Positions 7,195-33,752 of a stretch of DNA of 33,752 bases are shown in pieces. The position numbers and the translations under genes are program-made. Below the pieces are notes generated by a model. That model did not search any database, had not been told where the DNA came from, and was given only the letters and a program-made list of their open reading frames with translations. The number at the start of each line of letters is the position of its first letter. The stretch's first letter is position 1. Source of the stretch: Paracoccaceae bacterium (GTDB taxonomy: Bacteria; Pseudomonadota; Alphaproteobacteria; Rhodobacterales; Rhodobacteraceae); the NCBI GenBank assembly GCA_027351005.1, contig DAIEJF010000270.1, positions 1 through 33,752 on the forward strand. The letters are read 5' to 3'.

Positions 7195-8061
7195 TTACAT
7201 GTCGCGCGCAATAACGAAGCGGGCACAGTGGCGCAAGGTATCCGCCGCGTCGCCATAGGGCAGCAGGGCGGCCTCGGCGTCCTCGACCAGCGCGCGCGCG
7301 CGGTCCCGCGCGCCGTCCAGCCCGAGCAGCGACACGAAGGTCGCCTTGCCGGCCGCCGCATCCTTCTGCAAGCGCTTGCCCGCCTTCGCCGCATCCCCCG
7401 TCACGTCAAGGATGTCGTCGGCGATCTGGAAGGCCAGCCCCAGCGCCGTCGCATAGGCGGCAAGCGGCGCGGGATCGGCACCTGCGATCACCGCGCCCGC
7501 CTCGGCCGACCAGCGGATCAGGGCGCCGGTCTTGCCGGCCTGAAGCCGGGTGATCTGGGCCAGCGTCAGCGGCGTGGCCGAGGTTTCGGCGGCCATGTCC
7601 AGCGCCTGACCCAGCACCATCCCCTGGGCACCCGCTGCACGGGCAAGCCCCGCGACCAGCGCGATGCGCACCTCTGCCGACCCCAGGGCGGGGTCGGAGA
7701 GAAGCTCGAAGGCCAGGGTCTGAAGCGCGTCGCCCGCCAGGATCGCGGTCGCCTCGTCCCATTTCACATGGACGGTGGGCTGGCCGCGGCGCAGGTCGTC
7801 ATCGTCCATCGCGGGCAGGTCGTCATGCACCAGGCTGTAGGCGTGCAGCGCCTCGGCCGCCGCCGCCGCCGCTACCGCCTGATCCGGCGACACCCCGTGC
7901 AGCCGCGCGCCTTCCAGCACCAGGAAGCCGCGCAGCCCCTTGCCACCCTGAACCGCGTAGCGCATCGCATCGGTCAGCGGCAGGTCTTCGCGGTGGCCCA
8001 GCACGGCCAGCAGATGCGCCTGTACCCGGGCCGCATCCTCGGCCAGAGCGGTGACGAACAT
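7195..8061 (-). CDS. ispA: Polyprenyl (farnesyl/geranyl) diphosphate synthase
   Basis: YSLVHDDLPAMDDDDLRRGQPTVH (DDxxxxD), GLAFQIADDILDVTGD (second Asp motif); starts 1 nt overlapping the xseB stop. Confidence 0.93.
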   Translation of the reverse strand: MFVTALAEDAARVQAHLLAVLGHREDLPLTDAMRYAVQGGKGLRGFLVLEGARLHGVSPDQAVAAAAAAEALHAYSLVHDDLPAMDDDDLRRGQPTVHVKWDEATAILAGDALQTLAFELLSDPALGSAEVRIALVAGLARAAGAQGMVLGQALDMAAETSATPLTLAQITRLQAGKTGALIRWSAEAGAVIAGADPAPLAAYATALGLAFQIADDILDVTGDAAKAGKRLQKDAAAGKATFVSLLGLDGARDRARALVEDAEAALLPYGDAADTLRHCARFVIARDM

Positions 8062-8294
8062 CAAAGCCCCTCGGCTGGCACGGTGCCCACCGCGCGCCCC
8101 TCGGCGGCGCGGATCAGTTCCACCTTGGCCTCAGCCTCGGCCAGCTTGTCGGCGCAGCGCTTCTTGAGCTGGGCGCCCTGCTCGTAAAGCGCGATCGACT
8201 CTTCCAGCGGCACGTCGCCCCGTTCCAACCGGGTCACCACCTGCTCCAGCGCCGCCATCGCCTCTTCGAAGCTCATTTCTGCCACCGGCTTCAT
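8061..8294 (-). CDS. xseB: Exodeoxyribonuclease VII small subunit
   Basis: 77 aa: MSFEEAMAALEQVVTRLERGDVPLEESIALYEQGAQLKKRCADKLAEAEAKVELI. Confidence 0.97.
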   Translation of the reverse strand: MKPVAEMSFEEAMAALEQVVTRLERGDVPLEESIALYEQGAQLKKRCADKLAEAEAKVELIRAAEGRAVGTVPAEGL

Positions 8295-12383: not shown

Positions 12384-13445
12384 TTACGGCATTCTTGCGG
12401 CAGGTGTCAGCCGCGCGAGCGCCCAGTCAGCCGCCTCGGCGACCGCGGGATCGGGATCGGACAGATGCGGTGTCGCGGCCGCGGCCAGTGCCGGATCGCC
12501 GCTATTGCCGATTGCGTAAAGCACGTTGCGCAGGAAGCGGTCGCGCCCGATCCGCTTGATCGGGCTGCCCGCAAAGCGCGCGCGGAACCCCGCATCGTCC
12601 AGCGCCGCAAGCTCGGCCAGTGGCGGCGCCCCGGTCCGGTCGGCATAGCCGATCTCGGCCGCGGCGACGGCGAACTTGTTCCAGGGGCAGACCGCCAGGC
12701 AATCGTCGCAGCCATAGATCCGGTTGCCCAGACCCGGCCGCAGCGCGGGGTCCACCGGCCCGCGGTGTTCGATCGTCAGATAACTGATGCAGCGCCGGGC
12801 ATCGAGCTGGTAGGGCGCCGGGAAGGCCCCGGTGGGGCAGGCATCCAGACAGGCGCGGCAACTGCCGCAATGGTCGGTTTCGGCGGCATCCACCGGCAGT
12901 GCCAGCGTGGTGAAGATCGCGCCAAGGAAGATCCAGTTGCCGTGATCGCGCGACACGAGGTTGGTGTGCTTGCCCTGCCAGCCCAGCCCCGCCGCCTGCG
13001 CCAGCGGCTTTTCCATCACCGGCGCGGTATCCACGAAAACCTTGATCTCGCCCCCCGCCGCATCGATCAGCCACCGCCCCAGCCGCTTCAGCCGCCGCTT
13101 TACCAGGTCGTGGTAATCCTTGCCGCGCGCATAGACGCTGATCGCGCCTTGCCCGCGCGCCCGCGTCGCTGCCAGCGGATCGCCCGCGGGTGTGTAGCTT
13201 TCGGCCAGCATGACCACGCTCTGCGCCGCGGGCCAGAGCGCCACGGGATCGACGCGCCAGCCCATGCGTTCGGCCATCCAGCCCATCTGCCCGTGCCGCC
13301 CCGCCGCCACATAGGCCGCCAGCCGCGCCGAAGCCTGCGGGATCGCATCGGGACGACAGATGCCCAGCCCGGCGAAGCCCTCGGCCCGCGCCCGGTCTTC
13401 CAGCGCCGCGCGAAGGTCGGCGCCCTGCATCGCTGCCCGTTTCAT
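12384..13445 (-). CDS. queG: Epoxyqueuosine reductase
   Basis: GYADR...; 4Fe-4S motifs [16 protein letters not shown] and [38 protein letters not shown]. Confidence 0.96.
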
Positions 13446-13500
13446 CTTGGTCCAAACATCCCCGGGGCAAGCGGGTGGCAAAGAGCCCCCCGCGACCGCG

Positions 13501-30031: not shown

Positions 30032-31270
30032 TCAGAGGGTCAGCGCGCGATCCCCGGCGGCATCGCGGATGCGCGTGCCAAGGCCCAGCCGGTCCAGCAC
30101 CGTCAGGAAGGGCTTTGGCGGCAGTTCCTCGATGTTGCGCATGCCGCCCACGTCCCAGGTGCCGTCCGCGATCAGCAGCGCCGCGGCAACCGCGGGAACA
30201 CCGGCGGTATAGCTGATCCCCTGGCTGCCCACCTCGGCATAAGCCTCGGCATGGTCGGCCACGTTGTATATGAACACCTCTGTCGCCTTGCCGTCCTTTT
30301 GTCCGCGGACAAGGTCGCCGATGCAGGTCTTGCCGGTATAGTCGGGGGCCAGGCTTGCCGGATCGGGCAGCACCGCCTTCACCAGCTTCAGCGGCACGAC
30401 CTCCTGTCCCTCGGCCGTTCTCACCGGCTTTTCCGACAGAAGGCCCAGGTTTTTCAGGACCGTGAACACCTGGATGTAGCGTTCGCCAAAGCCCATCCAG
30501 AAGCGCACGGTAGGAATGCCCAGGATCTGGCTCAGCGAATGCACCTCGTCATGGCCGGTCAGATAGGCGCGCTGGTTGCCCACGACCGGCAGATCCCAGT
30601 CCTGACCGACCTCGAACATCTGGTTGGAAACCCACTGGCCCTTCTGCCAGGACCACACCTGCCCGGTGAATTCGCGGAAGTTGATCTCGGGGTCGAAGTT
30701 GGTGGCGAACCAGCGGCCATGGCTGCCCGCGTTGATGTCGATGATGTCGAGCGTGTCGATCCGGTCGAAATGCTCATCTGCCGCAAGACGGGCATAGGCG
30801 TTCACCACGCCCGGATCGAAACCCGCGCCCAGGATCGCGGTGACGCCCGCCGCCGCGCAGGCCTCGCGCCGCCGCCATTCATAGTTGGCATACCACGGCG
30901 GGGTTTCGCAGACCTTGGCCGGGTCTTCGTGGATCGCGGTATCCAGATAGGCGGCGCCGGTCTCGATGCAGGCGGCCAGCACCGTCATGTTGACGAAGGA
31001 CGAACCGAGGTTCAGCACGATCTGCGCCCCCGTCGCCCGGATCAGTGCGGCCACCACGGCGCTGTCCATCGCATCAACCGCATGGGCGGCAAAGGTGCCC
31101 GGCACCTTCATCGCGCCCCTGGCCCGCACCCCCGCGATGATCGCCTCGCATTTTGCAATCGTGCGCGAGGCGATGTGCAGATCGCCCAGAACATCGTTGT
31201 TCTGCGCGCATTTGTGCGCCACGACCTGCGCCACGCCACCGGCGCCGATGATCAGAACGTTCCGTTTCAC
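30032..31270 (-). CDS. Carboxynorspermidine/carboxyspermidine dehydrogenase (saccharopine dehydrogenase family)
   Basis: GTG start; MKRNVLIIGAGGVAQVVAHKCAQNNDVLGDLHIASRTIAKCEAI...GAGFDPGVVNAYARLA...DINAGSHGRWFATNFDPEINFREFTGQVWSWQ. Confidence 0.92.
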   Translation of the reverse strand: MKRNVLIIGAGGVAQVVAHKCAQNNDVLGDLHIASRTIAKCEAIIAGVRARGAMKVPGTFAAHAVDAMDSAVVAALIRATGAQIVLNLGSSFVNMTVLAACIETGAAYLDTAIHEDPAKVCETPPWYANYEWRRREACAAAGVTAILGAGFDPGVVNAYARLAADEHFDRIDTLDIIDINAGSHGRWFATNFDPEINFREFTGQVWSWQKGQWVSNQMFEVGQDWDLPVVGNQRAYLTGHDEVHSLSQILGIPTVRFWMGFGERYIQVFTVLKNLGLLSEKPVRTAEGQEVVPLKLVKAVLPDPASLAPDYTGKTCIGDLVRGQKDGKATEVFIYNVADHAEAYAEVGSQGISYTAGVPAVAAALLIADGTWDVGGMRNIEELPPKPFLTVLDRLGLGTRIRDAAGDRALTL

Positions 31271-31306
31271 GGGCGGAAACTCCTTTCAGCACGACAGAGG
31301 GAAGCC

Positions 31307-32404
31307 TCAGCCAAGGCTCGATCGGTAATCCTGGTAGCCGAACTGACGGGCAACGGTGATGCTGCCGTCGATCTCGCGGATCGCGATGGCGGGCATCTGC
31401 ACGCCATTGAACCAGTTCTTCTTGACCATCGTGTAACCGGCCGCATCCAGGATCGACAGCCGGTCGCCCACCTGCAACGGCGCGGGGAAGCGGAACTCGC
31501 CGAAGATGTCGCCCGCAAGGCAGGATTTGCCGCAGATCATGAACGAATGTTCGCCTTCGTTCGGCGTAATCTTCGCAGGCTGGCGGTAGATCAGCAGATC
31601 CAGCATGTGCGCCTCGATCGAACTGTCGACGACGGCCAGCTTCTTGCCATTGTCCAGCACGTCCAGCACCGTCACTTCCAGCGAGGCGGCGTTGGTGATC
31701 GCGGCCTCGCCCGGCTCCAGGTAGACCTGCACGCCGAAGCGGTCGGAAAAGGCCCTCAGCCGGGCCGCAAGCGCCTCGACCGGGTAGTCCGCGCCGGTGA
31801 AATGGATGCCGCCCCCCAGGCTGACCCATTGAACCCGCTCCAGCAGCGCGCCGAATTCGGCCTCGATCCGGGAAAGCTGCGCATCGAACAGCGCGAAATC
31901 GCCGTTTTCGCAGTTGTAATGGATCATGAAGCCGGAAATCCGGTCGATCACCTGCCCGATCTTCGCGGCGTCCCATTCCCCCAGCCGGGAAAACGGCCGG
32001 GCGGGGTCTGCCAGATCGAAGCCGCTGGTGGAAAACCGCGGGTTCAGCCGCAGCCCGCGGGAGATGTCCTGTGCGCGCCCCTCGAACCGGGCAAGCTGGC
32101 TGATGGAATTGAAGATGATCTTGTCGGCATAGCCCACCGCCTCGTCGAACTCGTGGTCGGACCAGGCCACCGAATAGGCATGCGTCTCGCCGCCAAACTC
32201 CTCGCGCCCCAGCCGCAATTCGTAAAGCGACGAAGACGTGGTGCCCGCCATGTGCGGCTTCAGCGTGTCAAACACGGGCCAGGTGGCAAAGCACTTCAGC
32301 GCCAGAAGCGCCTTGGCGCCCGACAAAGCCTGAAGCCGGTCGATGATCGCCATGTTCCGCGCCAGCGCGGCGCGGTCGATCAGATAATAGGGTGTTTGCA
32401 GCAT
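31307..32404 (-). CDS. nspC: Carboxynorspermidine decarboxylase
   Basis: MLQTPYYLIDRAALARNMAIIDRLQALSGAKALLALKCFATW (PLP Lys), WVSLGGGIHFTGADYPVEAL, YLEPGEAAI, FMICGKSCLAGDIFGEF. Confidence 0.94.
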   Translation of the reverse strand: MLQTPYYLIDRAALARNMAIIDRLQALSGAKALLALKCFATWPVFDTLKPHMAGTTSSSLYELRLGREEFGGETHAYSVAWSDHEFDEAVGYADKIIFNSISQLARFEGRAQDISRGLRLNPRFSTSGFDLADPARPFSRLGEWDAAKIGQVIDRISGFMIHYNCENGDFALFDAQLSRIEAEFGALLERVQWVSLGGGIHFTGADYPVEALAARLRAFSDRFGVQVYLEPGEAAITNAASLEVTVLDVLDNGKKLAVVDSSIEAHMLDLLIYRQPAKITPNEGEHSFMICGKSCLAGDIFGEFRFPAPLQVGDRLSILDAAGYTMVKKNWFNGVQMPAIAIREIDGSITVARQFGYQDYRSSLG

Positions 32405-32438
32405 CGGCGGATCCCCCGGGTGGCAAGGGAAGGGTCAA

Positions 32439-32467
32439 GGCGGGGCCGTATACGGTGCGGCCCCGCC
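32439..32467 (-). terminator. GC-rich hairpin downstream of the helicase frame
   Basis: GGCGGGGCCG/CGGCCCCGCC 10-bp perfect stem (32439-32448, 32458-32467), 12 nt after the distal TGA at 32481-32479; weak T-tract. Confidence 0.5.
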
Positions 32468-32478
32468 GGGTGCAACCC

Positions 32479-32784
32479 TCAGCCCCGGCCGCGTGGGCCG
32501 CTGCGCGGCTTCAGCCGCTGCGACGGATCGGCCGGGTTCACGGGCGGTCGCCGGGGCGCGCCGGGCTTGGCCGGGCGTACGGCCTTGTCGGCGCCGGTCC
32601 AGCGCGGCTTCTTCGCCGGCCCGTCCTCGCCCGCGGCGCGCGGCCGGGCGGGGCGATCATCGGAGGACCTGGCCTCGTAGGGTTTGCCTTCGTAGGATTT
32701 GCCCCCGGCAGATTTGGCGTAGGGCTTGCGCGGCCCGTCCTCGGCCTTGGCATAGGGTTTGCGCGGCGCACCCTCGGATTTGGC
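32479..32784 (-). pseudogene. Open continuation of the helicase frame beyond an in-frame TAA
   Basis: Directly after TAA (32787-32785) the frame reads AKSEGAPRKPYAKAEDGPRKPYAKSAGGKSYEGKPYEARSSDDRPARPRAAGEDGPAKKPRWTGADKAVRPAKPGAPRRPPVNPADPSQRLKPRSGPRGRG then TGA. Confidence 0.7.
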
Positions 32785-32990
32785 TTAGGGCTTGCGCGGG
32801 GCGTCGCCGGTCGATTTCGCATAGGGCTTGCGCGGGGCGTCGGCGGCCGGTTTCGCGTAGGGCTTGCGCGGCGCATCCTCGGCGGGCTTGCCATAAGGCT
32901 TCCGCGACGCATCCTCGCTCGTCCGGGCGTAGGGCTTACGGGGCGCATCCTCGGCGGGTTTGGCATAGGGCTTGCGCGGCGCGGCGTGGA
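32716..32990. repeat. In-frame coding tandem repeat, 36 nt (12 aa APRKPYAKPAED-like), last units 33 nt
   Basis: Tyr codons at 32965, 32929, 32893, 32857, 32821 (36-nt spacing), a TAA at 32785 in the same phase, then Tyr at 32752 and 32719 (33-nt spacing). Confidence 0.9.
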
Positions 32991-33752
32991 TCTGGGCCAC
33001 GTCGCCATCCTCGCTCCGGGACACGTCGCGTGCCTCGTCGCGCGCCTTCACGCCGAACCGGCGGGCGGGCTTCACCTCGTCACGCGTTTCATACTTTGCG
33101 GCGCGGAAGGATTTCTTGCCCTGCACCGGGCCTTCGGGCGCATCGAAGCGGGCGGGTTCGCGGCGTGGCGCGCGGGCGGCCGGGCGTTCCATCGACGGCT
33201 CGCCCGCCATCCGGCTCAGCACCAGCCCCGGTTCCAGTTCCATCGCCGCGCCGAGCGCAGCCTCGAAGCCCTTCACCGCGGCTTCGGCGATCTGCACGTA
33301 GGTTTCGTCCTGCTGCACCCGGATGGCGCCGATCTCGGCCTTGGTGATCCGCCCCTGATCGCAGAGCTTCGGCAGGATCCAGCGCGCTTCGGCCCGGCCG
33401 GTGTGGCCGACCGTCAGGCGATACCAGACCGAATCGCCGAACGCCTCGCGCGGGCGCTTGGCCTCGACCGCCTGCGCGGCGGCGGGTGTCGCGGTCACGC
33501 GCAGCTCTTCCGGCGCCGAACGCCCGGCGCGCCATAGCCGCAGGAAGGCCGTGGCAAGCGCCTCCGGCCCGTAGGCGCCGGTCAGCGCGGCCACCGCGGC
33601 GGCCTCGTCCTCGGCCACCGGCGCGCCCAGTTCCGGCGCGGTCATCAGGCGGGCATCGTCGCGTTCCTGCACCTCGTCGGCCGAGGGCGCGGGGCCCCAG
33701 GTCGCGGTGACGCGCGCGCCTTGCAGGATGCGCTGTGCCTTGCGGTAGTCGC
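32785..33752 (-). CDS. DEAD-box RNA helicase, C-terminal region (5' end beyond window)
   Basis: Frame enters from the right edge: DYRKAQRILQGARVTATWGPAPSADEVQERDDARL...DbpA-like RNA-binding domain WYRLTVGHTGRAEARWILPKLCDQGRITKAEIGAIRVQQDETYVQIAEAAV, then basic repeat tail. Confidence 0.85.
   Translation of the reverse strand, partial: DYRKAQRILQGARVTATWGPAPSADEVQERDDARLMTAPELGAPVAEDEAAAVAALTGAYGPEALATAFLRLWRAGRSAPEELRVTATPAAAQAVEAKRPREAFGDSVWYRLTVGHTGRAEARWILPKLCDQGRITKAEIGAIRVQQDETYVQIAEAAVKGFEAALGAAMELEPGLVLSRMAGEPSMERPAARAPRREPARFDAPEGPVQGKKSFRAAKYETRDEVKPARRFGVKARDEARDVSRSEDGDVAQIHAAPRKPYAKPAEDAPRKPYARTSEDASRKPYGKPAEDAPRKPYAKPAADAPRKPYAKSTGDAPRKP

Follow-up and report, generated by a model that had tools for sequence, protein, structure and literature searches.

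A probably recent in-frame TAA in the repeat tail of a DEAD-box RNA helicase gene of a draft Rhodobacteraceae genome

The question raised by this locus is why a helicase reading frame, running from 33750 to 32479 on the minus strand, should be crossed by a stop codon in the middle of a tandem repeat and still carry on, open, well beyond it. In the window (i.e., the whole stretch of 33,752 nucleotides analysed) the tail of the gene is built of PRKPYAKxxxDA units, encoded by a 36-nt tandem array at 32706..32982 on the minus strand (7.9 copies by Tandem Repeats Finder) and, just as a preliminary description of this DNA had it, a tyrosine codon recurs every 36 nt (low ends at 32965, 32929, 32893, 32857 and 32821) until, at the next position in phase (32785..32787, minus strand), TAA stands in its place. 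Past it the frame is open for a further 101 codons (32482..32784, minus strand), close to the 100 or so first estimated, and takes in another two repeat units and a basic C-terminus before it reaches a TGA at 32481-32479. Two details of that description need adjusting: the two further units are present, with a period of 33 nt there and not 36, which is a small correction, and the tyrosine, said to be invariant, is so in the window and in its sister genome, whereas some Rhodobacteraceae units have tryptophan at this place. Our answer is that the TAA is, judging from comparison of sequences, very likely a private, one-base event, the frame having been longer ancestrally, and the reading we prefer, with a probability of roughly 0.57, is that one strain really carries this allele.

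The window is the entire contig C59 of a draft genome of 326 contigs, 91% complete, which has the 5′ part of the helicase gene on another contig, C6. The 321 codons that precede the TAA (32788..33750, minus strand) encode a post-core linker, a DbpA-type RNA-binding domain and RKPY repeat units, the domain (PF03880) being recognised in the window part itself with an E value of 4.8e-10 and 39.8 bits against a cut-off of 25.6. The core of this organism's helicase, with its SGRTGRAG motif, is on C6, and the intact sister protein of 768 aa presents the complete order, i.e., DEAD (PF00270, 4.7e-42), Helicase_C (PF00271, 4.5e-27) and the DbpA RNA-binding domain. That order, together with a basic low-complexity C-terminal tail, is shared with the DEAD-box/DbpA helicases (PF00270, PF00271 and PF03880; DbpA/CsdA/CshA-like), from which the window copy differs by the in-frame TAA in its tail. 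The helicase reaches none of the NCBIfam equivalog cut-offs for DbpA, CshA, CsdA, SrmB, RhlB and RhlE (348 bits against 524 for DbpA proper, NF008744), so that no named subtype is assigned and the most fitting name for the gene is that of a DEAD-box RNA helicase carrying both a DbpA-type RNA-binding domain and a repeat tail, the latter long, basic and probably disordered.

The most direct evidence on the origin of the TAA comes from the sister, L010, a metagenome-assembled genome identical with G005 and the nearest relative. It is collinear with the window across all 33,752 bases at 94-95% DNA identity, and at the site it has TAC, a tyrosine codon, in a single open frame that runs from the start to the same TGA; were the TAA a recent nonsense change, just this would be expected of the nearest relative, i.e., an unbroken frame, a sense codon in place of the TAA and a common stop downstream. 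Seen from the sister, TAA against TAC is the one-base change earlier proposed, and the suggestion of either a recent nonsense mutation or a sequencing or assembly error gains support. The tails of the two genomes differ by whole-codon insertions and deletions only, the window having one extra unit, and the other window genes compared are intact in both. Between window and sister, dN/dS is 0.13 up to the TAA and 0.27 beyond it; the relaxed selection that an old stop would imply was not found past the TAA (Fisher p 0.33-0.36, with small counts) and, as the two values do not differ significantly, the downstream part seems to have been constrained until recently.

An open frame behind a stop codon is weak evidence on its own, since 101 open codons arise by chance in about one in four resampled sequences at this base composition (P = 0.23, dinucleotide resampling, 68% G+C), and 8 of the 24 other genes of the window run on past their own stops for longer. 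This would suit a reading in which the TAA is simply the natural end of the gene and all similarity behind it is accidental. It is homology that decides, and that reading is refuted by it: the alignment with the sister protein passes the site and reaches the same TGA, and the part past the TAA carries a motif of the family, which leaves a natural stop a negligible chance. Among the three frames past the TAA, the helicase frame has the best coding score. The TGA is thus the ancestral stop, as first proposed, and the TAA a private one-base event, in view of the sister's frame, the downstream dN/dS of about 0.27 and the C-terminal motif.

The motif in question, D[TP]S[QKR]R[FLM]xxP, is present in 18 of the 26 complete tails of orthologues, where 0.003 would be expected in shuffled tails, and lies mostly 12-16 residues from the C-terminus in tails of the genus and the family, even though tail length varies greatly across both. 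In the window it reads DPSQRLKPR (32503..32529, minus strand), past the TAA, and would be lost were translation to end there. It also occurs near the C-terminus in L010, L012-L020, L057, L059, L063, L068, L072 and L073, kept at the end of otherwise fast-evolving, disordered Rhodobacteraceae helicase tails, and could represent a short linear motif for binding.

A stop in mid-tail was absent from the sister, from the complete genus-level tails and from the family-level tails read. Had the TAA been the proper end, orthologues should end at it without any homologous tail; the sister, continuing to the TGA, does the opposite. Recurrent mid-tail stops seemed at first to be present in seven other genomes of the family, and these were rejected as such: in the six that were read, the gene ends naturally at this stop, which the match overruns into flanking DNA, the seventh (G068) having no readable frame with the pattern used and standing outside the six. 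The flagged stops being natural C-termini, in none of the relatives read is a stop in mid-tail followed by homologous tail sequence, as conserved readthrough would require. The viral collection, searched for this exact stretch with third codon positions left free, gave no match.

This bears on the possibility that the TAA is read through, in a programmed or tolerated manner, to give a short and a long form of the helicase, which the preliminary description had ranked last and which the absence of mid-tail stops from the complete orthologues read also makes improbable, as no such stop is conserved. In its favour are the tail past the TAA, still in frame and homologous to the tails of the relatives, and the proline that is the last sense codon before the TAA, a C-terminal proline being described (Hayes et al. 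2002, as cited in PMC7246954) as able to slow termination in E. coli. However, read-through is reported to be lowest at TAA (PMC9348620), i.e., the least leaky of the stops; the proline is a side effect on termination and not evidence for readthrough, and the open downstream frame is fully explained by the recent origin of the TAA. An even slimmer chance attaches to a mixed case, in which a real, segregating TAA allele terminates inefficiently after the proline and yields a mixture of short and full-length proteins differing in D[TP]SxRxxxP. As for a TAA read as sense, through a change in the code or a suppressor tRNA, the open frame behind it is all that speaks for it; on the other hand, TAA closes the intact genes at 12384-13481 and 7195-8064, and does so at the same place in the sister genome. 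With TAA a working stop in these two conserved window genes, recoding is disfavoured to the point of being hardly credible.

There remain the two readings in which a full-length ancestral frame was interrupted by one base, once in the cell or once in the assembly. In the second, the TAA would be an error of the draft consensus (a wrong base call, or a mis-resolution of repeats or strains near the contig end) and the gene would be intact in the organism. The setting is one in which such errors are not surprising: the draft is broken into 326 contigs, about 1 kb separates the site, itself part of a 36-nt tandem repeat, from a contig end, and the contig end overlaps its neighbour imperfectly, 33436..33752 matching C6:1-317 (G000) at 314 of 317 positions. 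In addition, the helicase frame is the sole broken one among the genes compared over 33.7 kb, and a draft relative, G028, has the same gene over three frames, which shows that draft artefacts do arise at the helicase locus. In that relative (L061, G028:C197:8000-10797) the DTSKRFVPP end is still recognisable, and the splits are probable draft frameshift errors.

Against a consensus error, nothing else in the contig suggests that errors are frequent in it, and a second allele of the stretch is absent from the contigs of the bin. The overlap itself is informative too. Its three mismatches between C59 and C6 (GAC/GAT, CTG/CTT and CTG/CTA; window positions 33655, 33556 and 33535) are all synonymous and at third positions, which is a rare outcome for random errors, and as C6 agrees with the sister at each of them, C59 carries the derived base at all three. 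Synonymous differences at which C6 matches the sister are to be expected of true strain variants rather than of random errors and, though they come from three sites only, they point to a source sample of mixed strains. From this overlap it is about 650 bp inward to the TAA. The overlap differences, all of them synonymous, and the unbroken frames of the other genes compared favour a real allele of one strain, in spite of its being a single observation, made in a fragmented draft, near the end of a contig and within repeated sequence; a consensus error is the lesser probability of the two, and a considerable one.

Under the preferred reading of a real allele, the history of the gene could be summarised as follows. 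The original helicase frame ended at the TGA at 32479..32481 (minus strand), common to the sister, and a recent one-base change, private to the strain (or, if an error, to the assembly), turned the tyrosine codon of one repeat unit into TAA. Translation would then stop at the TAA, leaving the helicase core and the DbpA domain intact and removing the last 101 residues, including two repeat units and the D[TP]SxRxxxP motif. A shortened helicase would presumably be made, and the effect of losing the tail would probably be mild. In this it resembles other nonsense alleles and truncated genes of draft genomes, i.e., a private one-base stop in an otherwise intact and conserved frame, and differs from them in nothing unusual, the break being in a disordered tail and not in the catalytic core; the case is ordinary in kind and involves no new mechanism. 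If real, the allele amounts to a naturally truncated helicase, deprived of a conserved C-terminal motif but with its catalytic and RNA-binding domains spared, and could serve to study the role of the repeat tail. For annotation, caution is advisable: the gene of this draft is to be marked as an interrupted one, with its ancestral end at 32479, and not as a naturally shorter helicase.

The strong hairpin said to follow the TGA is there, beginning 11 nt after it, at 32439..32467 (minus strand) and identical in the sister genome. Its stem is of 10 perfect G+C base pairs, and a 62-nt segment folds at -30.9 kcal/mol (z -2.6); as an intrinsic terminator it was considered and rejected, for it was not called as one and has no U-tract. 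It sits in a stretch (about 32363-32489) of more than 100 bases identical to the sister, in surroundings that are 94% identical, which runs from just before the helicase TGA, across the intergenic hairpin and into the start of the next gene. Downstream of the helicase, on the same minus strand at 30032-32404, Pfam domains identify a PLP-dependent decarboxylase followed by a saccharopine-dehydrogenase-like gene, a pair which we take to be, probably, the carboxynorspermidine decarboxylase and synthase of polyamine synthesis.
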